Of a DNA stretch of 47,519 nucleotides, positions 9,008 to 32,190 are shown one piece after another (position 1 is the first letter of the stretch; each line of letters begins with the position of its first letter). A model generated the notes under the pieces. It saw only the letters and a list, made by a program, of their open reading frames with translations, had not been told where the DNA came from and did no database searches. The position numbers were made by a program, and so were the translations under genes. Origin of the DNA: a virus; the IMG/VR virus record IMGVR_UViG_3300025151_006999, positions 1-47,519 of that record; one strand, written 5' to 3'.

Positions 9008-11134
9008 TTAGCTTTTATAGGCTGACATTAGCATAGTCGATCCTACTTTTCTTCCTTCTAAGTTTATAACCTTACCGCCTTCTACAGCAGATATTAATTT
9101 TTTTAGTAAGTCATTAGTTTCTTTACCAAATTGAGTACCACCGGCCATTACTAAAGAATCTTTAGGATTAGCTCTTATAGTAAAATCGTCTAATTTAATT
9201 TTTCTTACTCTACTAGCTGCATCTCTTTCTTCCTGACTAAGGTTATATTGAGAAGTATCAGCATAAGGGTTTCTAGATGAACGCATTAGATTCGCCATCT
9301 GCCTCTTATTCTCAGCTTTGTCAGCCATATCAATTAATTTAGCTGCTTCTGCTCTGTCTATCTTATCTTCTTGAGCAAGTTTGCTTACTCTTTGTTCTCT
9401 TTCGAATTCCTCAGAAGCACCTGATAGCCATGCTAATCTCTTAAGTACCCTTGGTAAAATTGAAGTAAACATATCTAATACTCCCGATCCAACTAAATTA
9501 GCAAATTGGTCTTTAGCATTACTTAGTGCATTATTGAATTTTTCTTGAGCAGTTATAGCCTCCATAGTCTGTTTAAAGGTCATACCTTTTAAAATTCCAG
9601 CTTCTATTTCTGCTCTTTGCTCAGCATCAGCAACTCCTTCTAATTTTTTAGCGAGTTTTCCTTGGTCTGCTTCAAGTTTTTTAGTTAATGTTCTGGCTTT
9701 TATAAATTCTTCATTAGAAAGTCCTGTAGCTTGTGCTATAGCTTCTTGTATTATTGGGCTTCTTAATTGTTCATCATTAAGATTTCTAGTTTGCTTTAAT
9801 ACTTCTTCAGTTGCTCCTGCTATATCTCCAGTAGCAGCAAGTGCTCTTGCTCTTTCAAAATTAAACTGTCTACCGGTTAATAGTTCAGCTTCAAGTTCAG
9901 CTCCAATTGATTGTTCGAAGTCTAATAGTCCACTTGCTATATTACTAGCTTGTTGTAGAGAAACACCGAACCTTCTAGTTTGTAATACAGCATTAGCTAG
10001 TTCGTCTCCTTGAAAGTTAAAATTAGCTAGTACATCAGATGACGTATTAGCAAGTTCCTTAAATAACATACCGCCTGTAATTGTAAACCCATTAGCTTTA
10101 GCTTGTGAGTTTGCTATTCCGGCCATGTTATCAAAGACTTCTGCTGTAGTCTTACCTTGATTTTCAAATGCTGAAACTAAGTATGCTGCATTTTCACCGG
10201 CGATACCTAGTCTTTCTGTTAAAGTAGCTACAGATTCAGCTTGTTCAGCTTGAGAAAAAGTTAACACTCCTTGAGTCTCAACTAAATCCTGCAAACCTTT
10301 ATGCATCTGCTCGGTATTGAAATTAGTTTCAGTTAAGTATTGAGTGGAATCTTGTAATTGCCTATTTAATGATGCTGCTGCATCTCTGGTTAAGCCGAAA
10401 TTTTGCTGTAGATTAGTGGTTAAACTATCAGCTCTAAACAGAAGGTCCACAAAGAACTGTATAGATTTTACTATTACTCCTACAACTCCTAAACTTTTTG
10501 TAAATCCTTTAAAAACTGAGCCAACTCCAGCATTGAATACTTTAATATTTTTTGTCATGCCAGACATACCTTCTTTACCATTAACTTCAAAAGCTTTTGC
10601 TCTCATAGCTTCCATAGCTTCATCAGCATTTATTAAAGAACCAAAAAATTTATTTTTTCCTAGACGACTAAATATTTCACCTAAATTTCCTGTTCTTTTC
10701 TCTACTGCTTGAGCTGTTTTTTGATCGGCTTCTAATTGCTTTTGTTCTAAATCTAACGCTTTATTTGTATTATCTAAATCGTCTTCATTTATTTTAACAC
10801 CCAGTTGAGAAGCTCTTTGAATTTTTCTAGCTAATTTTTCTCTTTTGACTTCTAAGTTAAATATTTGTTTAGAAATATCCTTAGAGGCAACCATTCCTCT
10901 AGACATTTTAGCTTGATTACTGGCTGAATCGTCAGTAGAACGAGCTATACTTCTAAAAGCTTTACTTACATCGTTACTAACAGTTTTAAGTACGGATGCA
11001 TCTATACCATCAAAAGAGTCTTCAATAGCATCTCTTATAGATTCACCTATTTTAGCTGATACCCCTAGCAGAGTATCTTCAATGAATACTTTTATTTCTT
11101 GTATATTTTTTTTATTTTGAGGATCTATCGCCAT
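9008..11134 (-). CDS. Tail tape measure protein
   Basis: A 708-residue, mostly alpha-helical protein with long coiled-coil stretches (about residues 85-150 and 480-640), Ala/Gln/Glu-rich composition, and one hydrophobic helix at about 216-233 (GVVGVIVKSIQFFVDLL). These are the hallmarks of tape measure proteins, which set tail length and may help DNA passage through the membrane. It lies directly downstream of the frameshifting tail assembly chaperone, the classical arrangement in tailed phages. T4 gp29 (590 residues) is the functional counterpart. The coding strand reads TATTTATA 14 bases before the ATG. Confidence 0.8.
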   Translation of the reverse strand: MAIDPQNKKNIQEIKVFIEDTLLGVSAKIGESIRDAIEDSFDGIDASVLKTVSNDVSKAFRSIARSTDDSASNQAKMSRGMVASKDISKQIFNLEVKREKLARKIQRASQLGVKINEDDLDNTNKALDLEQKQLEADQKTAQAVEKRTGNLGEIFSRLGKNKFFGSLINADEAMEAMRAKAFEVNGKEGMSGMTKNIKVFNAGVGSVFKGFTKSLGVVGVIVKSIQFFVDLLFRADSLTTNLQQNFGLTRDAAASLNRQLQDSTQYLTETNFNTEQMHKGLQDLVETQGVLTFSQAEQAESVATLTERLGIAGENAAYLVSAFENQGKTTAEVFDNMAGIANSQAKANGFTITGGMLFKELANTSSDVLANFNFQGDELANAVLQTRRFGVSLQQASNIASGLLDFEQSIGAELEAELLTGRQFNFERARALAATGDIAGATEEVLKQTRNLNDEQLRSPIIQEAIAQATGLSNEEFIKARTLTKKLEADQGKLAKKLEGVADAEQRAEIEAGILKGMTFKQTMEAITAQEKFNNALSNAKDQFANLVGSGVLDMFTSILPRVLKRLAWLSGASEEFEREQRVSKLAQEDKIDRAEAAKLIDMADKAENKRQMANLMRSSRNPYADTSQYNLSQEERDAASRVRKIKLDDFTIRANPKDSLVMAGGTQFGKETNDLLKKLISAVEGGKVINLEGRKVGSTMLMSAYKS

Positions 11135-11164: not shown

Positions 11165-11413
11165 CTATTTTTTAGAACGTTTAGATGAGTAGGATGGAGA
11201 AATATTAGGACCAAAAGCTTGCTTTTGTGATTTAGCAGCTTTTTTATGATTTTTATCTACTTCTTCAAAGTGAGATTTGAGATTTTGAAAGGTAAATCTA
11301 CGTAACCATATAGGCATATTATATACATCATACCATGTATACCCGCCATTACCGTGAAATACTATTTCGTGAATTTGTGTGAATAGAGCAGTTCTATATT
11401 CAGGCGTCAGGCC
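11165..11413 (-). CDS. Tail assembly chaperone, frameshifted C-terminal extension (GT-like)
   Basis: An open frame overlapping the 3' end of the 247-residue chaperone gene, read here from the T7 run at 11420-11414 to a stop at 11165. It encodes 82 residues beginning GLTPEYRTALFTQIHEIVF and including VYNMPIWLRRFTF, then a Lys/Ser-rich tail. I know similar segments from marine myovirus proteins. The frame is closed upstream by a stop at 11429-11431 and has no ATG before the conserved block; the first ATG is in VYNM, mid-domain. It is therefore most likely made as a fusion, by a +1 or -2 shift on TTT TTT T, giving about 325 residues. This mirrors lambda G/GT and the -2 shift of phage Mu. Confidence 0.75.
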   Translation of the reverse strand, partial: GLTPEYRTALFTQIHEIVFHGNGGYTWYDVYNMPIWLRRFTFQNLKSHFEEVDKNHKKAAKSQKQAFGPNISPSYSSKRSKK

Positions 11414-12143
11414 AAAAAAAGTCGATCCCTATCGGGACGCTGACGACCTCCTTCCCGCCATTTCTATTGATAAACTCATAATCTAGATTTATATCTGGGT
11501 TTATCTCTTCATAGAATTGTCTAATTACTCTAGCATCTTTTGCTAATAAGAAATTATCAACAAAATGTCTAATATCTTTTTTTTCAGTATTCCCGTTAAC
11601 AGAAGTAATTAGGTGTTTTAATCTAGAACTAACGGAAGTTTGATTTTCTTTTTGAATTTTTTTATTTCCTTCTATTTCTTCACTAATAGCTTTTTCATCA
11701 GCTGAGTTAAGAATTTTTATAGTAACAGTATTATCTGTGTTAGGAAGGTTTATTTGAAAACTATTATTTCTATCTTTAAAAATACTATAATCTATTACTT
11801 TATGCTCTAATTTGGATAAATCAACATTAATATTCTGTCCTCCGTATTGAACCGAATAATCTTTTCCGTAAGATAAAATTCTTGCGGCTATCAGAAGGGC
11901 ATTTTTATCTCCTACTAAAATCTCATGTAATTTTATGTCTTTATCTACTATCAAAGACTGTAGTAACTTATCCATAACAGTACCTTGAACTATATAATTT
12001 GTATTAGAAAGAATATCTTCTTCCTTGGCTGTCATATACTTCATTTCTATAGTACCTGAGGAGAGAGGAGAATCTTCAGGGTATAACAGTCCTTTTGATG
12101 GTAATTCTACCGTTTCGGTAGGTAAGCTGAATTTTGAACTCAT
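11400..12143 (-). CDS. Tail assembly chaperone / T4 gp26-like baseplate chaperone family
   Basis: A 247-residue protein opening MSSKFSLPTETVELPSKG, with GTIEMKYMTAKEEDIL and a long charged helix region (DEKAISEEIEGNKK). I associate this pattern with the T4 gp26-type baseplate/tail assembly family; the precise family assignment is from memory. It lies between the tail tube and tape measure genes, where tail assembly chaperones sit. The unshifted product ends DFFWPDA at a TGA; a shift at the preceding T7 run would replace WPDA with an 82-residue domain. The 3' end has an unusual GC-rich patch. A terminator and a candidate promoter lie just upstream. The leader before the ATG (AATAAAATTT) has no Shine-Dalgarno motif. 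Confidence 0.72.
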   Translation of the reverse strand: MSSKFSLPTETVELPSKGLLYPEDSPLSSGTIEMKYMTAKEEDILSNTNYIVQGTVMDKLLQSLIVDKDIKLHEILVGDKNALLIAARILSYGKDYSVQYGGQNINVDLSKLEHKVIDYSIFKDRNNSFQINLPNTDNTVTIKILNSADEKAISEEIEGNKKIQKENQTSVSSRLKHLITSVNGNTEKKDIRHFVDNFLLAKDARVIRQFYEEINPDINLDYEFINRNGGKEVVSVPIGIDFFWPDA

Positions 12144-12252: not shown

Positions 12253-12738
12253 TTAGTAGTTTAGGATACAGTAATCCATTGATACTGTCATATTCAAGTC
12301 AACTACTTCAGAGTTTGACCAGTCATATGAACCGAAATCTGCGTTTTGTATGAATGCTCCTTTGATTATCCATTCTCCTACGATATCACCAACAGGACCT
12401 AAAATATTTAAAGTTAAGTCTTTTTTGTAGAAATCTGAATAACCAGCTCTACCTGTCACTGATTCATATGATAATCTTGCCCATTCCATTACAGCTTGTG
12501 CTCCAGAAGGTGTGATTGGATCATATAAAGTCATATCCATATCACCCCATTCTCTCTTACCACGAATCTTTCTATAAGAGTTAATATGGTCTAATTTTAT
12601 TACTTCGTCTGTAAAGTTTGGAGAAGCAACGTTTTTAACCATAAACGATGGAATACCGTCTATAAAAAGTACAAATCTATTCTGTACTTTTGGCTCAAAC
12701 GCTCTAAACATTATTTCATTTGGATCTAATACTGCCAT
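12253..12738 (-). CDS. Tail tube protein, gp19-like
   Basis: A 161-residue protein, nearly the length of T4 gp19 (163), which forms the inner tube of contractile tails. It has the family's layout: a start MAVLDPNEIMFRAFEPKVQN, the RFVLFIDGIPSFMVKN strand, an IRGKREWGDMDMTLYDPI loop, and closing strands EWIIKGAFIQNADFGSYDW and VDLNMTVSMDYC. It directly follows the sheath gene and is followed by a strong terminator, so tube protein can be made at high level independent of downstream genes. No Shine-Dalgarno is seen before the ATG (AAAAGTATAAA). Confidence 0.92.
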   Translation of the reverse strand: MAVLDPNEIMFRAFEPKVQNRFVLFIDGIPSFMVKNVASPNFTDEVIKLDHINSYRKIRGKREWGDMDMTLYDPITPSGAQAVMEWARLSYESVTGRAGYSDFYKKDLTLNILGPVGDIVGEWIIKGAFIQNADFGSYDWSNSEVVDLNMTVSMDYCILNY

Positions 12739-12779: not shown

Positions 12780-14504
12780 TTATGCTCCAAAAGATGCACC
12801 TGTTGGTTCAACTGTGAAGTCTAATACAATAAATTCTGCTGTTTTAGCTGGTTGTATAAAGATTTGACCAATCAATTGGTTTCTATCAATTACGTCAGCT
12901 GTGTTATTTGAATCATCCATTACAACTCTAAATGCATAAAGACCTTGTCTCTGTACTACTGAATCTAAGTATGGATTAACAGCTGCTAAGAATTTGTTTC
13001 TTGTATTTACTGTGTTTTGCTCGAATACTAAGTTTTGTGCTTGGTTTCCGATAAACTCTTTTAAGTCGATTAATAATCTTCTTACGTTTACTCTATCTAA
13101 AGCTCCTGCTTTAGTTTGTAAAGTCTTTTGACCAAATACTGCAATTCCGCTTCCTGGGAAAGTAGCAATCGGGTTTACTTTAGAATCATATAAAGTATCT
13201 CTTTGTGAACGAGATAATCTTCTTTCTGCTTGAATTACTCCAGCAACTCCTCCTCTTACTAATCCTGCAGGTGCAAACCAAGGTGCGTTAGCTCCATCTG
13301 TGAATGCATATACTCCAGGTATAAATGTTGAAGCAGGTGCCCATACATTTTTACCAGTAGATGATTGAGTTTGTAACCAAGGCCAGTATGCTGCTGCATA
13401 AGAACTATTTAAAGTATCTGCTTGACCAGTTACATTAGCTACTGTTGCACCATGAGCATGTAAATCTACTACTGCTATACAGTCTCCTCTATTCTCAGCT
13501 AAATCAATTAATAAGTCTACAGTTGCTCCATGATGGTTATCAACAATTCCTGGTGCTGAAATGATGTTAAATTGATAATCGTCTGAGTTATTAAGTAGTG
13601 TAATTATATTGGTATAATCACCTGTACCTAAACCTTGAGTATCTGCTGCAATATTATCATTAAAATTCATACCAGCTTTAACAATAGCTCCTTGAGCTCC
13701 GAAGAACGATCCAGATTGTGCTTTTGGTAAAGAACCAGAAGCAGCAGCTAATCTTATGCTACCGTTATTACCAATATAATTAATTGTTGGTGAATTTACT
13801 GCGCTTACTCTAATATAATTTGATCTATTTACGTATTCACCTGTAGTAGTAACATGATCATAAGTACCAGCTAAAGCTTTAGTCTGATTACCGATTACTT
13901 GTTCTATATAATTTGGTGAATTTGGATCTAGACTTAAATTGTTAAATGTTTCTAGTACTACTTTATTTTTTGTATTGTCGTCTCCTCTTCTAACAGATAA
14001 AGTAAAAGTACCTTTAGAGTTATTTACATTTGAGACCTCCCATCTCAAATTATCAGCTGATCCTGATTGTATTGAACCATCGCTATTTTCTTCTCCTACA
14101 TATGCTGTAGATGCTGTAGCGTTGTTATAGATTACTCCTTTGCCTAAAGTCTGTAATTGGAAAGGTTGAACTGATCCGTTTACAGAAGATGAAATATGTG
14201 TGTTTCCTGCTGCTGTAAATGTTCCAGTTTTTACTCTAGCTACTAATAAGCTATTTCCTCCTTGAGAAAAATAATTTTTAGCGGCGATAGATGTTAAAAA
14301 TTCTTGATTAGTAGAAGCGGATTCAAATGTATCTCCGAATACTCTTACATATTCATTATAAGAAGTAACAGTTGTAGGTACCTCTACTGGTCCTTTTACT
14401 GTAGGTCCTATTATACATGCTCCAACTTCAACTGGTGCTGGGGAGATAAAAGAAATATCATTTTCTCTTTGAAATACACCTGGGGAGATTATAGTTTCTG
14501 CCAT
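12780..14504 (-). CDS. Tail sheath protein, gp18-like
   Basis: A 574-residue contractile sheath subunit (T4 gp18 is 659). The N-terminus MAETIISPGVFQRENDISF is the classical sheath opening with the SPGV motif, followed by GACIIGPTVKGPVEVPTTV and the YNEYVRVFGD strand. The C-terminal part has the conserved handshake region: INVRRLLIDLKEF-type helix (here VNVRRLLIDLKEFIGNQAQ) and the closing IVLDFTVEPTGASFGA. The variable middle (about 100-300) is the surface-exposed domain. It is preceded by a weak terminator and a TATTTATA octamer, and no Shine-Dalgarno is seen (TTTTACCAAAC before the ATG). Confidence 0.95.
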   Translation of the reverse strand: MAETIISPGVFQRENDISFISPAPVEVGACIIGPTVKGPVEVPTTVTSYNEYVRVFGDTFESASTNQEFLTSIAAKNYFSQGGNSLLVARVKTGTFTAAGNTHISSSVNGSVQPFQLQTLGKGVIYNNATASTAYVGEENSDGSIQSGSADNLRWEVSNVNNSKGTFTLSVRRGDDNTKNKVVLETFNNLSLDPNSPNYIEQVIGNQTKALAGTYDHVTTTGEYVNRSNYIRVSAVNSPTINYIGNNGSIRLAAASGSLPKAQSGSFFGAQGAIVKAGMNFNDNIAADTQGLGTGDYTNIITLLNNSDDYQFNIISAPGIVDNHHGATVDLLIDLAENRGDCIAVVDLHAHGATVANVTGQADTLNSSYAAAYWPWLQTQSSTGKNVWAPASTFIPGVYAFTDGANAPWFAPAGLVRGGVAGVIQAERRLSRSQRDTLYDSKVNPIATFPGSGIAVFGQKTLQTKAGALDRVNVRRLLIDLKEFIGNQAQNLVFEQNTVNTRNKFLAAVNPYLDSVVQRQGLYAFRVVMDDSNNTADVIDRNQLIGQIFIQPAKTAEFIVLDFTVEPTGASFGA

Positions 14505-16670: not shown

Positions 16671-17461
16671 ATTTTTTTTGTTTTTTCAAAAAATCGTCTA
16701 GCTTTTAGTCCGTTATCCTGAGTAAGCATCCATCTAGGTCCAGATTCAGCTAAAATAAATTTAAACTGATTAGGAGAAGGATGTTTCAAAGACCAGCCTG
16801 CATCTGTATGTGTTCCATCAGGGTCAAATCTCATTGGCTCTCTAATTAATAAACCTTGATACTTTACAGGCCATATAGATCTATTATAAATTTTTTGATA
16901 GTTTAAATACTCTGCTTGCATTATATGCATCATTATTTTTTCTTCTGGAAATATTTTATTTATGAATACATCTTCAAACATACTACTAAATTTATTAAAA
17001 GTATTCTGACTGCCGTAAAAAAACATATCGTCAGTCCATAAATGACCATTATGAAGAGAAGTTCCTGCATAAGAGTAAATAATATTTTCTCCAACCTGCT
17101 TATCTTTATATAGGTCTACAAAATAATCTAAAACTTCTCTAAACATATAGAAGTCTGATCTAGTCTGTATTACTGCATTATAATCCTCTTTTATAAGTTC
17201 ATTAGCTTTATGTAAAGTATAAGAATAATGAGGTTGGTGACGTCTAGCTGGGTGTTTCTTTAAATCATAAGGGCAATCTTCTTCTTTTAATCTTATAAAT
17301 TTCTTAACCCAACTATATTTAGAGTAATCTATATCGTCTTCCCATGTAGCTAAATAAAAATCAAAACTTACATTAGAATATAAATTATTCCATTCAGCAA
17401 ATAAACTATTTGTTAAGTCTAAATACTTACCGCTACCGTTTATAATAACTGCAATTTTCAT
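16667..17461 (-). CDS. Putative glycosyltransferase-like protein (R-x-R-P-D group)
   Basis: A 264-residue member of the same group as 14943, 27606 and 34793. It starts IAVIINGSGKYLDLTNSLF, then has the DFYLATWEDD segment and a YNAVIQTRSDFYM strand that corresponds to the R-x-R-P-D box. A downstream WTDDMFFYGS segment is the probable second acidic site. The group is typical of phage and bacterial surface-polysaccharide loci and is probably a sugar transferase. Its start overlaps the sulfotransferase end by one base. Confidence 0.55.
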   Translation of the reverse strand: MKIAVIINGSGKYLDLTNSLFAEWNNLYSNVSFDFYLATWEDDIDYSKYSWVKKFIRLKEEDCPYDLKKHPARRHQPHYSYTLHKANELIKEDYNAVIQTRSDFYMFREVLDYFVDLYKDKQVGENIIYSYAGTSLHNGHLWTDDMFFYGSQNTFNKFSSMFEDVFINKIFPEEKIMMHIMQAEYLNYQKIYNRSIWPVKYQGLLIREPMRFDPDGTHTDAGWSLKHPSPNQFKFILAESGPRWMLTQDNGLKARRFFEKTKKI

Positions 17462-18078
17462 TAAAATGTATATTTAAAATAATCTAAATCTTTTTCCCAT
17501 AGTTTAGATAAAGCTTTTACTTGTTCTGTAGTGTAGTAATCTCTATAGTTTTTTACTTTATATTCGGTTCTATTAGTATTTTTTAATTTAGGTAAATTTA
17601 AAGTAAGAAAAAAAGTATTGAGTTTATGTATATCTTCTAGTTTAAAGTATCCATCTATATACATATTATCATCTTTATCGTATATAAAGCTAAACATACT
17701 CTTTTTCATAGGCGGTAAATGCCAAGGTTTATCTGGGTCTAGGTAATGATCTACAAAATCCGCCCAATTATAAGTTTTGTGAATTCTATTAACGTTTGCC
17801 CATCCATATTGCCAGTTATGGTAGTGATAGCTCACTAGTATGTCAAAAGGATTTCTGACTACGGTTAAGTGAGTATCGTTTTCATAGTATGACTCAGAGT
17901 TATCTATTTTTGACTTAAATCCTTGTCCAGTCCAGTATTTCTTTTTATCTTCTTCGTTTTTAAAAGGATTAAATAGGTAGCCATGGTCTAATACTTTTAT
18001 AAAAGGATTATCATTTTCTTTTAAAAGAGTCTTAATACTTGTAGTTCCTGTCTTCTGTATGGCTGTAAATACAATCAC
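17461..18078 (-). CDS. Sulfotransferase
   Basis: A 205-residue PAPS-dependent sulfotransferase. I choose the GTG at 18078, which overlaps the stop of the upstream gene as GTGA; the longer frame from 18129 would overlap it by 55 bases and place 17 unrelated residues before the first strand. From this start the protein reads MIVFTAIQKTGTTSIKTLL, the canonical 5'-phosphosulfate loop at the N-terminus. The 3'-phosphate site is TVVRNPFDILVSYHYH. A C-terminal aromatic-rich region would bind the acceptor. It probably sulfates a glycan made by the cassette. Confidence 0.78.
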   Translation of the reverse strand: MIVFTAIQKTGTTSIKTLLKENDNPFIKVLDHGYLFNPFKNEEDKKKYWTGQGFKSKIDNSESYYENDTHLTVVRNPFDILVSYHYHNWQYGWANVNRIHKTYNWADFVDHYLDPDKPWHLPPMKKSMFSFIYDKDDNMYIDGYFKLEDIHKLNTFFLTLNLPKLKNTNRTEYKVKNYRDYYTTEQVKALSKLWEKDLDYFKYTF

Positions 18079-19439
18079 GAATAATTTTCTAAATAATACT
18101 TTAAATCTTCCGGTGTTCCTAGACCCCACATCTTATCGATATTGAAAGTTCTAATTGCTTTTTTATCTTTTATAGCTTCGTTAAAAACTGGGCAAACATA
18201 AAACTCATTATTAACTCTAATATCTTCTTCTATCATTTGTTCTGCATACTTAACAAAATCAGAACCTTTTTTCCAGTAATAATAACCTACTGTAGCAATA
18301 TCTGAGATAGGATTCTTTTCAGCAACTTCTGTAACTAATCCTGCTTTATTAATTTTAGCAAATGACCATTTAGGATGAGTAGCTTTAAAAGTAACTATAC
18401 CGCCATCTGCATCTGTTTCATTCATTTTATATAGAAACTCATTTGAGTCCCATTCTACAAATTGATCAGAGTTAGCAAAGAATAAAGGGTTGTCGTTATC
18501 TATAAACTTCTTAGCTAACAGAGCAGTACAAGCTGCTCCTTCTGTTACACTGTTTACTTCTACAATTTTACATTTAGGAGTAATTAAGTTAAGTAGAGTA
18601 TCTAAATTATATTTTTCTCTATGCTGTTTTTGTACTACATAAATAAAATTAGCTTTAATATTTAAATTTTCAGTAACAACTTGAATCATAGGCTTGCCTT
18701 TAACGTCAATTAAAGGTTTAGGAAACGTATATCCTGCTTGCTCAAATCTACTTCCAGCTCCTGCCATAGGAATAAGTACATTGAGATTTTCATCTCTCCA
18801 TGCCGGTGTAGATTGTTTTTCTCCCATATCTATTTGCTCAATTTTACTTAAAATTTTATCTACAACTACTTCTGATGGGTTTTTAACTCTATAGATATAA
18901 GACTTACTTCTCGATGCAGCAAGTAATCCATAAGGTGAATCTTCTACTATAAGAGTTTCTTCTGGTAGAACACTCATTTTAGATATTGCAGTCCAATATA
19001 TTTCTGGGTGTGGTTTAGGGTTAGTAACATCTTCTCCTGAAAGGATAAAGTCCATATACTCAGCTAAGCCTAGTTTAGCTAAAACTGTTATAGCAGTCTT
19101 ACGTATAGAGTTAGTACATAATCCCATTTTAAATCCTGCTTTAGATAGTTCTGCCATAATCGACTGTAGTCTAGTATCAGGTTCTATATCTCTTAACATC
19201 TCAAAGGTAATTAACTGCTTCTTTTTCCATATTTCATTATGTTTTTCTACAGGTAATCCTTTCTTTTCAGATAATACTTTAAGTTTTTGTTTAGTAGTTA
19301 AACCATCATATACAGCAAGGTGTTCAGCCCAATCAAAAGCATATTCTCCTAATGCTTTATTTAATGCTTTAAAGTGTAAGTGCTTTGTTTCTATTAAAAC
19401 TCCGTCTAAATCGAATATAATTAATTTTATAGTGCTCAT
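18075..19439 (-). CDS. Bifunctional HAD phosphatase / sugar nucleotidyltransferase
   Basis: A 454-residue fusion. Residues ~1-205 are a beta-phosphoglucomutase-type HAD domain: FDLDGVLIE with nucleophile Asp10 and Asp12, the TNS motif at 109-111, KPHP at 142-145, and VEDSPYG at 165-171. Residues ~218-454 are a nucleotidyltransferase: PMAGAGSRF at 224-232, KPLIDVKGKPMI at 241-252, and a FANSDQFVEWDS metal site. Together they could act on a sugar phosphate and form the nucleotide-activated sugar. The second half is a paralogue of the stand-alone enzyme at 28222, which is next to a separate HAD gene, so the same pair exists both fused and split in this cassette. Confidence 0.85.
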   Translation of the reverse strand: MSTIKLIIFDLDGVLIETKHLHFKALNKALGEYAFDWAEHLAVYDGLTTKQKLKVLSEKKGLPVEKHNEIWKKKQLITFEMLRDIEPDTRLQSIMAELSKAGFKMGLCTNSIRKTAITVLAKLGLAEYMDFILSGEDVTNPKPHPEIYWTAISKMSVLPEETLIVEDSPYGLLAASRSKSYIYRVKNPSEVVVDKILSKIEQIDMGEKQSTPAWRDENLNVLIPMAGAGSRFEQAGYTFPKPLIDVKGKPMIQVVTENLNIKANFIYVVQKQHREKYNLDTLLNLITPKCKIVEVNSVTEGAACTALLAKKFIDNDNPLFFANSDQFVEWDSNEFLYKMNETDADGGIVTFKATHPKWSFAKINKAGLVTEVAEKNPISDIATVGYYYWKKGSDFVKYAEQMIEEDIRVNNEFYVCPVFNEAIKDKKAIRTFNIDKMWGLGTPEDLKYYLENYS

Positions 19440-20212: not shown

Positions 20213-20996
20213 AATGATTAATAAAATTTTTTAAGCCAGTTCCTCCTTTTACATGTACTAAGAAAGGAATTTCATTAAAGCTATGTATATTGTTTTTTAT
20301 TCTGTTTAATCCAGGGTAATTTTTTCTTAAAGTATCTCTATAATATCTACCTAATCCTACTTCGTAATAGCCCGGAAGATGAAGAAATTTTAATTTTTTT
20401 TCTCTACAAATTTTAGTTGCATCGTGATTATTATCTCCTAACTCATAGCCTATATCTATATTATGTTTACTATAAAAATTATTTCTACATAAAAACCAGT
20501 AACAATCAGCAAAAAAAGATCCTTCAAGTTCAGCTACTTTTTTCTTAGGTTTTGCATCAATTGTTATATACTGTAAGTTATCCTCTTCAAGCAAACCAAT
20601 TGCATCAGTAAGTAATTTATCCATAGGATAGTAATTATCTAAATACCATATATCATTATGCTGTATAATAAAATAATCTCCTGTTGCTGCTTCAATTCCT
20701 AAGTTATATGCCATTGCTGTAACTTCAGCTTGATTTCTTTTTTCTAAATTAGTTATAACTTTGAGTCCGTCTAAAACTTTTACTCTGTCATCATCAGTAT
20801 TTAATTTAAAGTCACCGGAATTGTCGATTAGTACAATTTCAACGTTAAGGTCTACTGATAAAATTTGATCTATTAATTTATTAGTATGAGAAAGAATAGC
20901 TTGATCGAGATCTGGTTTAATCTCAGGCCAGTCTCTTTTATCAAACACTGTCATTGGCCAGGTTGAACTATAACATATTATAAAACTTATTCTCAT
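20196..20996 (-). CDS. Glycosyltransferase family 2-like
   Basis: A 266-residue GT-A-type transferase. It opens with MRISFIICYSSTW, then VEIVLIDNSGDF, the AYNLGIEAATGDYFIIQHND stretch typical of GT2 enzymes, with HND in place of the usual DxD metal motif. Later parts contain a GYELGDNNHDATKIC acidic segment that could hold the catalytic base. It would add a sugar to a growing chain at the cytoplasmic side of the membrane or to a protein. It precedes the SGNH gene and overlaps the NeuB-like gene by 4 bases. Confidence 0.72.
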   Translation of the reverse strand: MRISFIICYSSTWPMTVFDKRDWPEIKPDLDQAILSHTNKLIDQILSVDLNVEIVLIDNSGDFKLNTDDDRVKVLDGLKVITNLEKRNQAEVTAMAYNLGIEAATGDYFIIQHNDIWYLDNYYPMDKLLTDAIGLLEEDNLQYITIDAKPKKKVAELEGSFFADCYWFLCRNNFYSKHNIDIGYELGDNNHDATKICREKKLKFLHLPGYYEVGLGRYYRDTLRKNYPGLNRIKNNIHSFNEIPFLVHVKGGTGLKNFINHYDIIN

Positions 20997-21826
20997 TTAA
21001 ATCTACCTCTATAATAATCGTGGTTAAATACTTGTTGATCGTTAAATTTATTTAATTCTCTATACTGATCTTCTTTATTCATATTACTGAATCGTTTGAG
21101 TTCAGACATCATTTTTGGTGTAACTGATACTTTACCGTCTCTTGTATCATCTATATTTAAAATAGTAAAGTGTCTTTCTAATACATCTATTCCTTGAAAA
21201 ATAGCTAATTTAGACGATAGTAAACTATCTTCATGAGGATTACTATGATCACTTAAGCCTACATTCTGCACTCCTAATTCGTTTCTAAAATACTCTATAT
21301 TCTGTAAATTAAGTTTATCTAATGGTGTAGGGTATACACAAGTACATTGAAGCATATAATATTCAATACCCATTGCATTTAAATTTTTTACAGTTTTTTT
21401 TATTTCTTCTAATGTTAAACTTGAAGTAGAAAAGAATAATCTCTTAAATTTAAAGTTTTTTAATTTTTTACCATAATCAAAAGCAGGTATAGAGTATCCA
21501 GATATTTTTAAATTATCGTATCCTAGTTCGTTAAATCTAGGAGCATGTTGCGGTACAAATATAGTAGTCATAGACTCTACTCCATACTCCATACATTTTA
21601 ATATAAAAAGCTCTTCATCTTCTTTACTCAGTTCTAATCCTTTAAGTCTACTATACTCAGGTTCGTACGGTCTATGCTTTTCATAGTTCTCTCTAAAAGT
21701 AAGATTACTAGCATGTATAGTTTGTATTTTTACTATATCACTACATACAGCAGCAGTCTTTATCATAGAGTCTAAAGTATCTAAATTACCATTATGATTT
21801 TGACAGAGTTCAGCTATAATTTTCAT
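20993..21826 (-). CDS. NeuB-like nonulosonic acid synthase
   Basis: A 277-residue enzyme of the sialic acid synthase family, which condenses phosphoenolpyruvate with an N-acyl-hexosamine to give a nine-carbon acid. The barrel motifs are present: IAELCQNHNGN with Glu6, VKIQTI, QCTCVYPTPLDKLNL, GLSDHS and ERHFT (the two metal-binding His). The usual C-terminal SAF/antifreeze-like lid, which takes NeuB to about 345 residues, is missing, so a lidless variant is likely. The cassette also encodes a NeuA-like CMP transferase (30053), supporting a nonulosonic acid pathway; no NeuC-type epimerase was recognised. Confidence 0.8.
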   Translation of the reverse strand: MKIIAELCQNHNGNLDTLDSMIKTAAVCSDIVKIQTIHASNLTFRENYEKHRPYEPEYSRLKGLELSKEDEELFILKCMEYGVESMTTIFVPQHAPRFNELGYDNLKISGYSIPAFDYGKKLKNFKFKRLFFSTSSLTLEEIKKTVKNLNAMGIEYYMLQCTCVYPTPLDKLNLQNIEYFRNELGVQNVGLSDHSNPHEDSLLSSKLAIFQGIDVLERHFTILNIDDTRDGKVSVTPKMMSELKRFSNMNKEDQYRELNKFNDQQVFNHDYYRGRFK

Positions 21827-23431: not shown

Positions 23432-24830
23432 AATATACGTTGTCAGTTAAAATATATTCTTTATAATTTTTTTTAGTTTTCCAATATTCATGTTCACAAT
23501 TTATAATTGCAACTTTTTGGTCTTTACTTTTTACAATACTAACATCTCCTGATATAAAATATAACATTTCAATAGGTGTTCTAAAGAAACTATCTAAATC
23601 TATATCTCCTAAAAACAAAGCAAATCCTCTGTAATTGTTTAACTCAGGAATAATAAAAAAATCTAATGTTTTATCTATGTTAATAATAGGTAAGTTGTTT
23701 AAACTATAGCTTCTTTCTTCATAGTTTTTATTTTTTTCATATTCAAATATTTCATTATTTTTATTTAAAAAAATATCAAATTTTTTCAACCAATTTTTTA
23801 TACTATCACCCTCAAAATACTTTTGTAAACTTTTTGGAAATGGATTTTTTGGATTACTAGAATAGGAATCAACTTCTAATAAATCTAAAACTTTTTTATT
23901 AGGAATAATTCTTTTTTCATTTACTAAAGTAGCTAATTTACTTTCATTTCTTTCAAAACATTTCCAAAGTTTAGAAGGTTTGTCTAAAGTAGTATAGACT
24001 GCGTATTGATTATTGTGAAATATTTCGCAAAAGTTATTAAAAGAGTTAAAAGAACTTATTACGTAGTTAGTACCGGGGTGTTTATTTTTACCGCCAGTCA
24101 TTAAATCATCTTTTTGATCGTATATATAAGTAGCTTTAAGTATCGGCATAGGATCTATACCATTATGTCTGTGTACTTTTTGATCTTTAATAATATCTCT
24201 ATCTTCTATTCCAAAACATAAATCAACTATATAATTTTGACCGTCTATTTTTTTAAGAGGGCTATATAGTTTATAAAGTTTCTCGTAAGTATCGATTTTC
24301 TCTATAGATTTAAAATTTTTAAACTTAATTTTATGTGATTGAGATTTTGGAATATATAAAAGTATATTACTTAAGTTTCTTCTACAAAATACACTAGCTT
24401 GCGCTCTTGTTTGTCCTGGATGTATAATCCAACTAAAGTTATGACCAGAGTTAATATCTTCAGCATCTATGGTTGCTTCTGTTAATTTCGATTCTTTTCT
24501 TATACATGTAGTTATGTGTACAGGTACATTAGAATTAAAATTAGATTTCATCATTTCATGTACTATATTAGTTCTCTGTCTCAAGCTTTTAGGGTAGTCT
24601 ACGTTTAAAACAAATTCCATTAATCTTTTAAATAAAAATTTATAGTCCATAATTTGGTTCATGAAACCTGTTCTACTGTACAACCACCTATACCTTATTT
24701 CGTTAATAAGGTTATCATAAGATGAACCTATATCATGAGCAGCTAATTCATAAGGAAAAGAATTAATATGAAATATATCTACTTCCTTAAATGTTCTGTC
24801 TATTATAGAATATGATTTCTTTGTAAACAT
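23421..24830 (-). CDS. Unknown protein with an HPGQTR box
   Basis: A 469-residue protein I cannot assign. It has no signal peptide or clear membrane segment. The most distinctive part is SWIIHPGQTRAQASVFCRRN at about 133-152, which resembles the H-x-G-x-x-R core of ParB-like nuclease/sensor folds and recalls the GTHR boxes of the proteins at 29227 and 30721. C-terminal residues carry several hydrophobic strands (PELNNYRGFALFLGDIDL). It lies between the dehydrogenase and the aminotransferase and overlaps both by 1-11 bases, so it probably works in the same pathway. Confidence 0.5.
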   Translation of the reverse strand: MFTKKSYSIIDRTFKEVDIFHINSFPYELAAHDIGSSYDNLINEIRYRWLYSRTGFMNQIMDYKFLFKRLMEFVLNVDYPKSLRQRTNIVHEMMKSNFNSNVPVHITTCIRKESKLTEATIDAEDINSGHNFSWIIHPGQTRAQASVFCRRNLSNILLYIPKSQSHKIKFKNFKSIEKIDTYEKLYKLYSPLKKIDGQNYIVDLCFGIEDRDIIKDQKVHRHNGIDPMPILKATYIYDQKDDLMTGGKNKHPGTNYVISSFNSFNNFCEIFHNNQYAVYTTLDKPSKLWKCFERNESKLATLVNEKRIIPNKKVLDLLEVDSYSSNPKNPFPKSLQKYFEGDSIKNWLKKFDIFLNKNNEIFEYEKNKNYEERSYSLNNLPIINIDKTLDFFIIPELNNYRGFALFLGDIDLDSFFRTPIEMLYFISGDVSIVKSKDQKVAIINCEHEYWKTKKNYKEYILTDNVYYEG

Positions 24831-25825
24831 TATAACAGTTTTAAATCAAAATTAAATTTAATATATTCTTTATTATCAGGTAGGATAAGAGTTCTGAAGC
24901 TCATTCCTAATTCGTTAAAGTACTTAAGGTTATCTTTATCAGTAAATCTTTCTACAAAAAACCAGCTTGAATCTGTATTTTTTACATTATATCCTTTTTC
25001 AATAAATTTTAAAACGTATTTTTCTTTTTCTTGTTTTGTACGCTTTATATACTCATTATAGTAGTCAATATTATCTAAAATAAACTCAGTATATTTAGCT
25101 CCTACAGAATTTATTTCATACATAAGCCTAAATTTAGATAAATATTCCATGTTATCTTGATGACTAACTAAAAATCCTACTCTACAGCCAGCTGCACCAT
25201 AAGCCTTAGAAAAGGTTTTTGTTACTATCAAATTTTTGTACTGGTGAATTAAGGGTATACAGCTTTCCTCCCCGGTAAATTCTAAGTACGCTTCATCGAT
25301 AATAACAAAAATACCTGTTTCTAATAGCTTTATTATCTGTTTTTGAGTATATACATCACCTAATGGTGAATTAGGGTTAGCCAACATAATAAACTGTGTG
25401 TTACTATCAGTTTGATCTATTATGCTTGACATATTTAGATTCATATCAGTATATTTTGCTTTTCTTAGTTTAGTTTGATATAAATCACTATAAACTTGAT
25501 ACATTGGAAAAAAATATTCAGATGTTACTACATTATTTCCTTGAACGTTAAATGTTTCAAATATAGTCTTAAGTGAAAAAGAAGAACCAGGAGTAAGTAG
25601 TAAGTTGTTCTGATTTATACTGTACAGTTTACATAGTTTATTTTTTAAATTTTCAGTATTAGGATAAAAACATATATCTTTCTGATTAAGAGAACTAAAA
25701 AATTTATCTAATAGTTGCTTGTCTATAGAATAGTTTCTTTCATTCTGAGTTAAAACGTATTTAAATTTGGTTTTATCCTCTTGATTATTTTTTCTATATA
25801 TGTTAAGTAAGTGCTTTTTCACCAA
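24830..25825 (-). CDS. PLP aminotransferase, histidinol-phosphate aminotransferase-like
   Basis: A 331-residue class I/II aminotransferase. PLP-binding Lys207 lies in TKTFSKAYGAAGCRVGF, with ANPNSPLG at 149-156, DEAYLEF at 178-184 and Arg215 as the carboxylate-binding residue. The HisC/CobD-like subgroup fits the length and motifs. It transfers an amino group to a keto compound and may provide an amino sugar or amino acid decoration. It begins 23 bases before the upstream SGNH gene ends and abuts the HPGQTR gene. Confidence 0.82.
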   Translation of the reverse strand: MVKKHLLNIYRKNNQEDKTKFKYVLTQNERNYSIDKQLLDKFFSSLNQKDICFYPNTENLKNKLCKLYSINQNNLLLTPGSSFSLKTIFETFNVQGNNVVTSEYFFPMYQVYSDLYQTKLRKAKYTDMNLNMSSIIDQTDSNTQFIMLANPNSPLGDVYTQKQIIKLLETGIFVIIDEAYLEFTGEESCIPLIHQYKNLIVTKTFSKAYGAAGCRVGFLVSHQDNMEYLSKFRLMYEINSVGAKYTEFILDNIDYYNEYIKRTKQEKEKYVLKFIEKGYNVKNTDSSWFFVERFTDKDNLKYFNELGMSFRTLILPDNKEYIKFNFDLKLL

Positions 25826-26693
25826 AAATTGATTTCGTTAGTTTATTATTAATATTATTATAAAGATTTTCAGCTAATATTTCATTACCTATTTCCGATA
25901 AATGATGATCATTATCTAATAGACCTTCATTATGTAGTGTTGGTCTAGTGCCGTACTTCATTAAATCATCTCCTATACTATAGTTTTCTATTATGTTAAG
26001 AGTATTCGATAATTCATCTAATGTATGAAGTTTTTGTAGTTTTTTTTCAAATCCCTGAGTAAGGTAATCGTAGTAGAGATTTTCAATAAGCTTTTTTTCT
26101 GAAAAAGTATAATTCATAGGTTTGTAAAAAGGTTGGAAAAAGATTCTAACCTGTCCGCCTAATTTTTCTATTATATTCTGTAAGTATAGTAATTGACGGA
26201 GATATTTTGCAAATTCAAATTTAACATGAAATAAATAAGTTAAAAATTCTTTTCTAAATTTGCTATATTCTTTTTCATCATTAGTTAAAGCAAAGTGTTT
26301 AACAGTCCACATTCTAGTTTTTTTGCTAAAAGTATAAACTATTTCATTTCTCCATACTTCCTGAAGCTGTATGATAAAAAGATGGTTAGCTAAAGAACCA
26401 GTTTTAATTAAGTAGTTATTGATTGCTCTTAAAGTACTGTCCGTACCTTGACCACCATATCCAAAATTTATAATTTTATCTATAGGTAAGAATTTTTTTA
26501 ATTTACCCATATATGTAAGATTTTCTGTAATAAAACTAAAATTAGGTTTAACTTTATACTTATCTTTAAGTGCTTGACTTGCCCATACTACTTTATTACC
26601 ATGTTTTCTTTTATTTACAAAAGCGCATCCTTGAGTATGTGAACACCCAGCTGCTATTAAAGTAAGAGGTTTATCAGCTACTATTGATTTCAT
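25803..26693 (-). CDS. SGNH hydrolase-like protein (GCSH type)
   Basis: A 296-residue SGNH-like protein with LIAAGCSHTQGCAF at 12-25 (Ser18 as likely nucleophile), a NFGYGGQGTDS Gly block and a C-terminal DNDHHLSEIGNEIL block that provides Asp and His. It belongs to the GCS-x-T subgroup. A central region rich in Lys and aromatic residues (about 140-220) is larger than in the other copies. Substrate unknown; an O-acetyl esterase or transferase on a glycan is most likely. Overlaps the radical SAM gene by 4 bases. Confidence 0.68.
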   Translation of the reverse strand: MKSIVADKPLTLIAAGCSHTQGCAFVNKRKHGNKVVWASQALKDKYKVKPNFSFITENLTYMGKLKKFLPIDKIINFGYGGQGTDSTLRAINNYLIKTGSLANHLFIIQLQEVWRNEIVYTFSKKTRMWTVKHFALTNDEKEYSKFRKEFLTYLFHVKFEFAKYLRQLLYLQNIIEKLGGQVRIFFQPFYKPMNYTFSEKKLIENLYYDYLTQGFEKKLQKLHTLDELSNTLNIIENYSIGDDLMKYGTRPTLHNEGLLDNDHHLSEIGNEILAENLYNNINNKLTKSIFGEKALT

Positions 26694-27613
26694 CCTTTTA
26701 TTCTCTTTAACATTGGAGCGAGCTCTTTATAGGAGCAGTTTTTACAATGAGATGTTGGGTTGTTAGTCGAACATCCTGTTCTTACTGCGCTATAGTCTTT
26801 AGAATCTCTAATTTCTTCTATAGTCTGTTCAAATAAGTTACCGAAAGGTTTAGCACCTGTGTTTAGACAGCACATTTTTACATGACCTTCAACTGTAGTA
26901 TAAATTCCTTCTTTGACCCAAAAACAGTCAGGAAAATCCCATTCTTCTTTACCTTTTACGTTATCTTTCCAATTTTTATTAAGGTAATCTATCTGTTCTA
27001 GTGTATAACCACCGGGCATAGACTTATCCTCACTCCATTCCTGAGCTATATTTAATCTTAATTCTTCTAAATTATATACATCTACTATTTTATCTTGGAT
27101 AGTTTGAATATCATTAATATTATCTTTATTTACCACATAATTACAGGTTACTCTACATCCATGTCTGTCCATAGGTTTAAAATCTTCAAGAAAAGACATT
27201 AGTTTTTCCCATTTAGCAGGTGCTCTATCTCTTTCATAAGATTCTTTATACCCGTCTATACTAAAGTATAAAAGGTCAATATATTTCATACATTCATTAA
27301 ACTTTATACCCATCTTAGAACCGGGTCTAATAGGGTATTGACAGTTAGTTGCAACAATTAAAAAAGCATCTGGAAAGAATTCTTTAAATGTTTTACATAT
27401 TTCATCAAACTTAGGATGAAGCATTGGTTCACCCATCCCCATTAATTTAGCTTCATTAATAGGGTGGTGTTTAATGTTCTCTAACATCTGTCTAAACTTA
27501 GGTACAGGCATATGTTGTAGTGCTCCTATTACTTCTTCTCTATTACAAAAAGAACACTGGAGATTACAGTAATTTGTAGTCTCTAAATAAGCATATGTAA
27601 TAGGTTTATTCAT
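26690..27613 (-). CDS. Radical SAM enzyme with SPASM-like C-terminus
   Basis: A 307-residue radical SAM protein. The 4Fe-4S ligands are Cys16, Cys20 and Cys23 in NYCNLQCSFC; a GEPMLHPKFDEI segment is the GGEPL-type SAM-binding motif. The C-terminal third holds more cysteines (VKMCCLNTG, then TGCSTNNPTSHCKNC), fitting a SPASM or twitch auxiliary cluster. Such enzymes modify peptides, sugars or cofactors by radical chemistry; in glycan loci they are often dehydratases, epimerases or methylase-like enzymes. The substrate is unknown. Confidence 0.82.
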   Translation of the reverse strand: MNKPITYAYLETTNYCNLQCSFCNREEVIGALQHMPVPKFRQMLENIKHHPINEAKLMGMGEPMLHPKFDEICKTFKEFFPDAFLIVATNCQYPIRPGSKMGIKFNECMKYIDLLYFSIDGYKESYERDRAPAKWEKLMSFLEDFKPMDRHGCRVTCNYVVNKDNINDIQTIQDKIVDVYNLEELRLNIAQEWSEDKSMPGGYTLEQIDYLNKNWKDNVKGKEEWDFPDCFWVKEGIYTTVEGHVKMCCLNTGAKPFGNLFEQTIEEIRDSKDYSAVRTGCSTNNPTSHCKNCSYKELAPMLKRIKG

Positions 27614-30060: not shown

Positions 30061-30724
30061 ACTTATTATGTATTGCTTTTACAAGTTTGAAATCTATTTC
30101 TATATCTACATCTATAAGTTCTTCATCAGGCCAATCAATTACATAAGGGTAAGGATCGTTTTTACTATTAGAAAATAATTCCCAATTATTTAACATATAG
30201 TCTTTTTTATAAAATACTAAAGAATGAGTAGCTTTATATACCCAAGGACCGGAAGTTGTAGATAGTCTATCGTTTTCTTTAAAATTAACTGGGTTAGATC
30301 TAGTATCCCAAAAAAAGTTTCTTTCTTTTGTTACAGTTATAGCACTATCGTATTTACTATTTATAAACCAATCAATAACTTCTTGTACTTTGTAAACGTC
30401 TAAAAATGGTTGACATGGATTATAGTTACATATATAATCTGATTCTACATTTTCTAAGTGTTTATACATAATAGAATGATGGGCATTTCCAGGTGCTACT
30501 GATTCTCTATTTCTATGTAAAATCGGCACTCCTGGTATGTATTGATCCATAATATCTCTGTCATATGCTGCTAAATACTTTTCTTGTACGTTTTTAATAT
30601 CTCTTACATTTGTAAGGGCATAATCTAACATACAGTGGCCAGCTTTATCTAATGGTCTTAAATGTTTATTTGGGACTCTGGTGCTTTCTTTACGAGCATG
30701 TATTATAACTGCTAAACTTTTCAT
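30053..30724 (-). CDS. NeuA-like CMP-sugar (nonulosonic acid) cytidylyltransferase
   Basis: A 223-residue nucleotidyltransferase of the CMP-sialic acid synthetase type. The N-terminal loop VIIHARKESTRVPNKHLRPL matches the IxARxxSxRxPxKN motif; CNYNPCQPF corresponds to the family's LQPTSPF strand; and the C-terminal DVDIEIDFKLVKAI fits the conserved DIDxxxDFxxA. With the NeuB-like enzyme at 20993 it supports synthesis and activation of a nonulosonic acid. The initial loop is divergent, so a 3-deoxy-manno-octulosonate-type substrate is not excluded. Confidence 0.72.
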   Translation of the reverse strand: MKSLAVIIHARKESTRVPNKHLRPLDKAGHCMLDYALTNVRDIKNVQEKYLAAYDRDIMDQYIPGVPILHRNRESVAPGNAHHSIMYKHLENVESDYICNYNPCQPFLDVYKVQEVIDWFINSKYDSAITVTKERNFFWDTRSNPVNFKENDRLSTTSGPWVYKATHSLVFYKKDYMLNNWELFSNSKNDPYPYVIDWPDEELIDVDIEIDFKLVKAIHNKYV

Positions 30725-32190
30725 AAAACTAATTTTTTATTATCTATATAAAACTCTTGTTTTTTATTTTTAGTATCAACTATCATTTTTAAAGATTTTC
30801 CTCCAAAAAATTCTGGAGTATTTACTTCAAATACTTGGTCGATACCTTTATTTTTATCGTATTGTAAAATAATCGGAATATCACTATCTGTCATCGATAG
30901 TAGAAAAGCTCTATGCGTTCCTCTTCTGAGCATAAAGTCTTTATCGTTATAACAAATAGGGAATAATAGCCCTTTGTTATAAATAGACACATATTGAGCT
31001 ATATCAACATCTTGTTTCCATTTAAGACATTTATGTGTTTCATAAAAATCAGTATACTTAGAATATTCGGGATATTTTCTATCGTACTGTTCTTCTATAG
31101 TTTTCCAATTTTTATTTTTCCAGCTGTTATCTCCCCATCTTTCTTCAACCTCTCTAAAAAATTTTTTTGCAATCGATATATCATCATTGTCGTGTACACT
31201 AGTCATATAATTAACAATAAGTTGGTATGGTAGTGTAAGGTAGATAAAATTAGTCCAAGTTTTTCCGTAACCTAACATATTCATAGAAATAGTATCAGCT
31301 TTTGCCATTACTATACCTTCATTAGTCGGATCTACATTATAGTACACTGGGTCAAAGCCGTCCCAATTTTCTTTTGGTTTAATTTCTTCGTTATCTGAAT
31401 TTATTGGTCTTTCGTTCCATCCTGATTTTTCGAAATCAGGTTTGAGTTTGTCTGAAACATTTAAATATGTATTAACAACATCTTCGTATTCTAATATATC
31501 GAACGGTTTATATTTAGTAAAGTCTTTAAACCAGTAATTTACTCTATTACTCTTGTCTTCTCTTTCAAAAGTATAATTAAATAATTTAGCATCTTCTGTT
31601 ATCTGTTTATTCGATATATTATTTTTGAAATACCAAGAATAATGTTTATTACTAAAGTTGGTTTTATTACTATGAGTTAAATTAGCTTTTAAGTCTAATT
31701 TATTAAGTACGTATTTAAAATCTTTTTTTAAATTTTCAAATCTTCCAACAAAGTCTATATAAGGTAGAGTATCTATATAGTGAGAATATTTACCCTTTAA
31801 AAAGTCTGATTGAGATAATGTATGTATAAGGTCTCCGTGTTGTTTAACTCTATCGTCAAAATTTAGTTCTTCTATATTATTTTTACCTATTTTAGTATTG
31901 TATATCTCTTCATAACATTTATCAGTATTTTCTAGAAAAGAGTCAAAAGTAAAAACTTTACTAACATCTTTATTAAATCTATATTCTGAGGTGAGTCTAT
32001 CCCATGGATTTCTAACAAAAGTAAATACAAAGTAGTCTTTTAAAATATCTTTAGTTAAGTTATCATAGTGTATTTCAAACCCTTCATAAGTTTCTTCTAT
32101 ACCGCATGCTCTATTTAAAGCTCTACCTATAGACATGCCGCCAGTTTTAGGTATATGCAGAAAAATAAATTTATGTTTATGATTTATCAT
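30721..32190 (-). CDS. Sulfotransferase fused to a GTHR-box domain
   Basis: A 489-residue two-domain protein. Residues ~1-215 form a sulfotransferase: FLHIPKTGGMSI at 10-21 is the canonical 5'-phosphosulfate loop and TFVRNPWDRLTSEY at 57-70 the 3'-phosphate site, of the type that acts on polysaccharides. Residues ~220-489 are a second domain matched by the stand-alone protein at 29227, with the box LRRGTHRAFLL at 421-431. The two halves are in one uninterrupted frame. The fusion suggests the GTHR domain binds either the sulfate donor or the acceptor, but that is inference. Confidence 0.75.
   Translation of the reverse strand: MINHKHKFIFLHIPKTGGMSIGRALNRACGIEETYEGFEIHYDNLTKDILKDYFVFTFVRNPWDRLTSEYRFNKDVSKVFTFDSFLENTDKCYEEIYNTKIGKNNIEELNFDDRVKQHGDLIHTLSQSDFLKGKYSHYIDTLPYIDFVGRFENLKKDFKYVLNKLDLKANLTHSNKTNFSNKHYSWYFKNNISNKQITEDAKLFNYTFEREDKSNRVNYWFKDFTKYKPFDILEYEDVVNTYLNVSDKLKPDFEKSGWNERPINSDNEEIKPKENWDGFDPVYYNVDPTNEGIVMAKADTISMNMLGYGKTWTNFIYLTLPYQLIVNYMTSVHDNDDISIAKKFFREVEERWGDNSWKNKNWKTIEEQYDRKYPEYSKYTDFYETHKCLKWKQDVDIAQYVSIYNKGLLFPICYNDKDFMLRRGTHRAFLLSMTDSDIPIILQYDKNKGIDQVFEVNTPEFFGGKSLKMIVDTKNKKQEFYIDNKKLVL

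Follow-up and report, generated by a model that had tools for sequence, protein, structure and literature searches.

The locus analysed here raises the question of whether a single gene of a T4-like phage specifies two tail assembly chaperones (TACs) through a programmed frameshift and, if so, in which direction the ribosome would shift. Programmed frameshifting is the established source of tail assembly chaperones such as lambda gpG/gpGT and their equivalents (Xu 2004; reviewed in PMC5009743), and G/GT chaperone frameshifts are known as -1, -2 or +1 depending on the phage, with T4 named as an exception in the review (PMC5009743). The window, i.e., the whole stretch of DNA that was analysed, corresponds to a 47,519-base virus record and represents a fragment (47.5-kb) of a phage genome; all window coordinates given below refer to the minus strand. 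UvsX-like and gp32-like proteins are also encoded in the window, and the phage is therefore regarded as T4-like in the broad sense. The genes are arranged in the order tail sheath protein (gp18-like, 12780..14504; phrog_23, E=6.5e-74; PF04984), tail tube protein (gp19-like, 12253..12738; phrog_4542, E=1.2e-24; PF06841), ORF1/ORF2 and, as the next gene downstream, a probable tape measure protein of 708 aa (9008..11134), which matches the annotated tape measure protein of Flavobacterium phage immuto (27% identity over 457 aa, BLASTP E=1e-26). The position between tube and tape measure claimed in a preliminary description of this DNA, which is that of G/GT-type genes, is thus confirmed by both neighbours. 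In this T4-like phage, positions 14946-47504 additionally constitute approximately 32 kb rich in sugar-related genes, including NeuB (20993-21826), a HAD plus nucleotidyltransferase fusion (18075-19439), an aminotransferase (24830-25825), a radical SAM/SPASM protein (26690-27613), two sulfotransferases (17461-18129 and 30721-32190), and two galactosyltransferase-7 proteins with laminin-G domains (41095-42501 and 42501-43886), and this gene set resembles a pathway for nonulosonic acids or surface glycans.

ORF1 (11400..12143) encodes the short chaperone TAC-N and ends with GAC TTT TTT TGG CCT GAC GCC TGA, corresponding to DFF-WPDA-stop, in which the zero-frame stop TGA (11400..11402) lies three codons past the Trp codon. 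The putative shift site TTT_TTT_TGG_CCT (11409..11420; mRNA core YUU_UGG_C) contains the P-site codon TTT (11415-11417), the A-site codon TGG (11412-11414), and a T7 run (11414-11420). The +1 frame, ORF2 (11165..11413), is open for 82 codons plus stop, from the first codon GGC (11411-11413) to the stop at 11165-11167, an opening with a probability of P ~0.002 by base composition alone, and would encode the C-terminal domain TAC-C. Upstream, the +1 frame is closed by a TAG (11429..11431) located 9-11 bases before the T7 run, which leaves no upstream start for ORF2, and the first ATG of ORF2 (11315..11317) is codon 33, situated inside a conserved MPIW motif (NMPIW); it is an implausible start, and no Shine-Dalgarno sequence is found in the upstream TATACATGGTATGATGTATATAATATG. 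The end of ORF1 directly after the T run, the 82-codon frame, the closing stop, and the lack of an ATG until mid-domain had all been described beforehand, and the sequence agrees on each. The predicted products are a short form of 247 aa (28.0 kDa) and a fusion of 325 aa (37.1 kDa).

The gene belongs to the T4 gp26/gp51 family. The profile of ORF1 matched phrog_150, the T4 gp26 family (E=2.5e-10); PF12322 gave no match to the window ORF1 at E<1, and was found in the relatives RM378 (2.4e-9) and LR756508 (4e-15), while both T4 gp26 (208 aa) and gp51 (249 aa) match phrog_150 and PF12322. The T4 proteins gp26 and gp51 are traditionally named hub subunit and assembly catalyst, and both have been listed among the hub assembly chaperones of T4 (PMC3004832). 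When the two are aligned, gp26 terminates in ..KEFFELL where the shift would occur, and gp51 goes on past that point. Profile comparison by hhalign gave 95% for ORF2 against the C-terminal domains of the -1-type phages described below, 95% for these domains against the gp51 tail, and a weak 20% for ORF2 against the gp51 tail directly, all three being above 150/150 column shuffles; by sequence comparison, ORF2 is probably homologous to the C-terminal part of gp51, transitively via the -1-type tails. T4 carries two phrog_150 genes and 12 other records carry one each, comprising the complete genomes of immuto, Mel-JY01, RM378, and LIS04 together with GXN1, the LR756 phages, and IMG/VR contigs; the T4 arrangement of a short and a long paralogue was not found in window-type phages. 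The top solved match of the AlphaFold2 model of ORF1 (pLDDT 91) was the HK97 TAC (2ob9), with Z 5.1, short of the Z 8 taken as clear, an rmsd of 4.0 over 97 of 104 residues, and unrelated folds at Z <=2.7; this modelled likeness is supportive, not conclusive. A search of the ORF1 sequence profile against PDB yielded nothing significant, Pfam on the frame holding part of ORF2 yielded only a sub-threshold Phage_TAC_13 (E 0.084), and the ORF2 model, of moderate confidence (pLDDT 76), had no informative structural match.

The relation of the two frames is conserved extensively, and this comparison with relatives is much stronger evidence than the base-composition estimate. From an IMG/VR search with ORF1, the best 80 of at least 600 matched stretches (53-70% identical) were taken, and ORF2 is in the +1 relation in all 80, with the site TTTTTTTGGCCT or TTTCTTTGGCCT, i.e., the T-run or a one-base variant. 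Further scans with distant queries provided a wider sample of 194 loci in 108 clusters, which was chosen by a Trp codon near the ORF1 end, Trp-less loci being read by hand; in this sample ORF2 lies in the +1 frame in 194/194 loci (in 191 of them the frame stays open for 45 codons or more, and in the other 3 a contig end truncates it), and TTYYTTTGGCCT is present in 108/108 clusters (95 with TTTTTTTGGCCT, nine with TTTCTTTGGCCT, and four with TTCTTTTGGCCT). The check proposed in the preliminary description, an alignment of homologues for the T run and the frame relation, accordingly upheld the frame relation. The TTYYTTTGGCCT 12-mer occurs exactly 108 times on both strands of the 1.23 Mb of representative loci, only at the shift site, and the site is also present in the isolates immuto and Mel-JY01. 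At the P site, 99 clusters have TTT and nine have CTT, and none of the 108 has TTC or another Leu codon; in the same genes TTT accounts for 0.81 of Phe codons and CTT for 0.20 of Leu codons, and the naive p values of this exclusivity are 1e-9 and 5e-7, respectively, relatedness being uncorrected. The preceding codon can be TTC, as in UUC_UUU_UGG (14 loci in one set of relatives and 4/108 clusters of the wider sample), so that the variants UUU_UUU, UUU_CUU, and UUC_UUU, all standing before UGG, have only YUU_UGG_C in common. The remaining fixed bases of the site are attributable to the overlap of the WP(D) codons with the GL(T) codons of the other frame. In RM378, whose ORF1 is only 22% identical, the site is TTTTTTTGGAAT and ORF2 is likewise +1. 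One locus (L128) has TTTTTTTTCCCT in place of TTYYTTTGGCCT and no Trp codon and still has ORF2 in the +1 frame, which implies that UGG is not strictly needed. A stop in the -1 frame, TGA or TAA right after the run, was considered as a guard in the first 74 clusters and was rejected, being absent in 16/108 clusters of the wider sample; the overlapping WPD and GLT codons are its likelier cause. Regarding hosts, L128 (3001-3726) is binned in a Winogradskyella metagenome-assembled genome (MAG), and five of the eight ORF1 relatives in MAG bins (L127-L134) are labelled Bacteroidota; the MAG labels and Flavobacterium phage immuto suggest Bacteroidota as the hosts of the +1 group.

On the basis of the two conserved frames, the conserved site, the single gene copy, the homology to gp26/gp51, and the selection on ORF2 described below, it is very probable that one gene yields both a short and a long chaperone, at a set ratio, through a +1 shift at YUU_UGG; from these sequence features we infer the shift itself, its direction, its efficiency, and the chaperone roles. 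Briefly, most ribosomes would stop at the ORF1 end and release TAC-N (28 kDa), whereas a minority would pause while peptidyl-tRNA(Phe or Leu) occupies the P-site YUU and the A site presents UGG, a slow Trp codon; this pause is assumed, the A-site codon being a sense codon. The tRNA would then slip forward by one base and re-pair with UUU, GGC would be decoded next, and ORF2 would be read through to give TAC-NC (37 kDa). The roles expected from the lambda gpG/gpGT model are coating of the tape measure protein for TAC-N and recruitment of tube subunits for the C-terminal domain of TAC-NC. In T4, the short gp26 and the long gp51 would correspond to TAC-N and TAC-NC as two separate genes. As for stimulators, downstream RNA folding at the site is not unusual (mean z -0.5), no Shine-Dalgarno sequence stands at the 3-nt spacing of RF2, and Shine-Dalgarno-like 4-mers are found in only 34/74 clusters, at the wrong distance.

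The direction had initially been left as either +1 or -2, on the grounds that Phe-tRNA could re-pair on the T7 run either way. A -2 ribosomal frameshift at the T run, as in phage Mu, reaches the same reading frame as +1, and in UUU_CUU_UGG a weak re-pairing on UUC is possible. However, the UUC_UUU_UGG relatives would place the P-site Phe-tRNA on UCU, with a mid-codon mismatch, and the conserved constraint falls on YUU_U, not on the bases needed for a -2 slip. A constraint on YUU followed by U is what +1 re-pairing on UUU requires, and we consider a -2 shift highly improbable; of the two directions first proposed, +1 is thus favoured. The UUU_CUU_UGG relatives further indicate that the T7 homopolymer, first taken as the basis of slippage, is not required.

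The pN/pS of ORF2 in the +1 frame is 0.37 and its median dN/dS is 0.21-0.26, and the mean diversity at codon positions 1/2/3 is 0.25/0.18/0.47, a pattern absent from the same DNA in the two other frames; dN/dS and the most variable third positions therefore argue that ORF2 is selected as a protein in the +1 frame. Its conserved core, GLTPxYRxxxFxQIHEIVFHGxGGYDWxTVYNMPIWLRxFTF, substantiates the early impression of a conserved GLTPEYR block, as ORF2 is kept in the best 80 of at least 600 matched IMG/VR stretches and is under purifying selection. Alternatively, ORF2 could be translated as a separate, unfused protein, either from a start codon of its own or through termination-reinitiation, and a start codon used for the second frame had been named at the outset as evidence against a frameshift. 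Between the upstream stop and codon 33, the +1 frame contains no ATG, GTG or TTG in the window and many relatives, although GTG, TTG or ATG codons do occur upstream in the +1 frame of some relatives. Separate, ATG-started ORF2s with a longer N-terminus exist in two members of the +1 clade, L100 (2501-3600) and L105 (2501-3511), with the ATG just past the ORF1 stop and in another frame, and LR756511 is similar; the fusion is hence not indispensable everywhere, and the frameshift appears to be lost in L100 and L105. L105 can serve as a natural control: in a quick tree it is nested among +1 phages, with immuto, L040, and L061 as its neighbours, its +1 frame is shut after 10 codons and its site has changed from CCT to CCA. 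This joint loss of the site and of the open +1 frame alongside a separate ORF2 is expected if the site serves frameshifting. The nucleotide-level conservation of the shift site likewise argues against independent expression of ORF2, which for the window-type gene is about as improbable as a -2 shift.

Transcriptional slippage on the T7 run would give mRNAs of altered length and a fusion made by ordinary decoding. The T7 run is present in most loci; however, relatives with UUUCUUUGG and UUCUUUUGG keep the +1 relation with T runs of just three or four, and the T-runs of UUU_CUU_UGG are three long, which argues against slippage of the polymerase, an alternative of similarly low probability. A homopolymer sequencing or assembly error, or a decayed gene, for which the single T run at the junction could speak, has next to no probability and is already refuted by the relatives, since the isolates share the site with 194 records drawn from many samples, variants lacking a long T run exist, and ORF2 is under purifying selection.

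With a +1 ribosomal shift as the preferred reading for the window, other solutions are found within the same gene family when homologues are read individually around the ORF1 end. A -1-frame ORF2 with TTT TTC is present in S-SM2 (cyanophage), KVP40, phiAS5, 121Q, Atu_ph07, Paride, Vibrio 2.275, and L089, and XacN1 has TTTTTTA as its -1 site; several jumbo phages belong to this -1 type. Small hypothetical or unannotated frames follow the gp26-like genes of L117, L118, L121, L122, L124, L125, L126, and L089, with the shift site TTT TTC, and, judged from sequence, the small frames in KVP40, S-SM2, 121Q, Paride, and other phages seem to encode the C-terminal half of the chaperone in the -1 frame. 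In GXN1 (Streptococcus), LIS04 (Listeria), and SP-15 (Bacillus), ORF2 is +1 and NCC_CGA follows the Phe-Phe codons at a short distance (L084:3983-4997, L085:3983-4925, and L119:2001-2950), which makes NCC_CGA a candidate for a separate +1 site in SP-15-like phages; in LR756508, ORF2 is in the +1 frame and the site is not clear-cut. Straboviridae such as T4, Melin, KP15, and EC-F2 possess both gp26 and gp51, adjacent to each other and in tandem in KP15 and EC-F2. The quick tree requires 6 state changes versus 25 in shuffles, being unrooted with many deep forks poorly supported. The chances appear evenly balanced that a single frameshifting TAC gene is ancestral in T4-like phages, that -1 (U UUU UUC) and +1 (YUU_UGG) switched at the homologous Phe-Phe by few-base changes, and that the gp26/gp51 pair is a derived escape by duplication.

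Collectively, the programmed frameshift in the tail assembly chaperone gene put forward in the preliminary description is supported, with refinements in three respects: direction, family, and precedence. G/GT frameshifting as such was already known. The identification of the T4-like TAC genes is due to Vladimirov, Gautam and Davidson (Virology 2022), as cited in PMC10885494 and PMC12846349; according to the former, some T4-like phages have a short gene together with a long, fused one, and the latter credits the 2022 study with poly-T -1 signals in T4-like TAC-N genes. The earlier claim of a new occurrence in T4-like tail assembly is therefore to be narrowed, as far as that study is represented in the two citing articles: the large +1 clade, the sense-codon site YUU_UGG_C, and the change between shift directions at a single homologous position appear to be new. 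Two chaperone sizes seem to be made from one gene in a large group of T4-like phages whose hosts are probably Bacteroidota, and T4-like phages would have at least four routes to a short and a long chaperone (+1, -1, duplication, and a separate frame) within one homologous family, a natural series for what sets frameshift direction and product ratio. T4 gp26 and gp51 would fit as the G and GT equivalents. YUU_UGG_C is a short +1 signal with a sense A-site codon and no visible stimulator, directly testable with a reporter, and it aids annotation where ORF2 has been overlooked or labelled hypothetical, as is the case in hundreds of viral contigs.

Comparison with known systems places the window gene among several partial likenesses. 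As in lambda gpG/gpGT, it lies between tube and tape measure and would give short and long forms with a common N-terminus; by contrast, lambda shifts by -1 and the window by +1 at YUU_UGG, and unlike lambda G, the window sequence belongs to the T4 gp26/gp51 family. The RF2 (prfB) +1 frameshift site is CUU_UGA_C. It shares with the window a P-site YUU followed by U, present in 108/108 clusters, and the proposed re-pairing on UUU, whereas the A site of the window is UGG, not a stop, and lacks a Shine-Dalgarno sequence at 3-nt spacing. The tsh gene of the Listeria phages PSA, A118, and A500 shifts +1 at CCC_UGA (PMC5009743); it too is a phage tail gene, and the CCC_CGA site of GXN1 resembles CCC_UGA, although tsh is the major tail protein gene and has a stop codon in the A site. 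The two-base-back P-site re-pairing of the Mu type differs in that it has no match in the UUC_UUU_UGG relatives. T4 itself has two paralogous genes and no frameshift where window-type phages have one gene, yet the family is the same, gp26 ending at the ORF1 end and gp51 having the extra C-terminal part. Finally, the -1-type T4-like TAC genes differ in combining UUUUUUC with a -1 shift, versus YUU_UGG with +1, and share with the window a homologous gene, the Phe-Phe position, and a homologous C-terminal domain.
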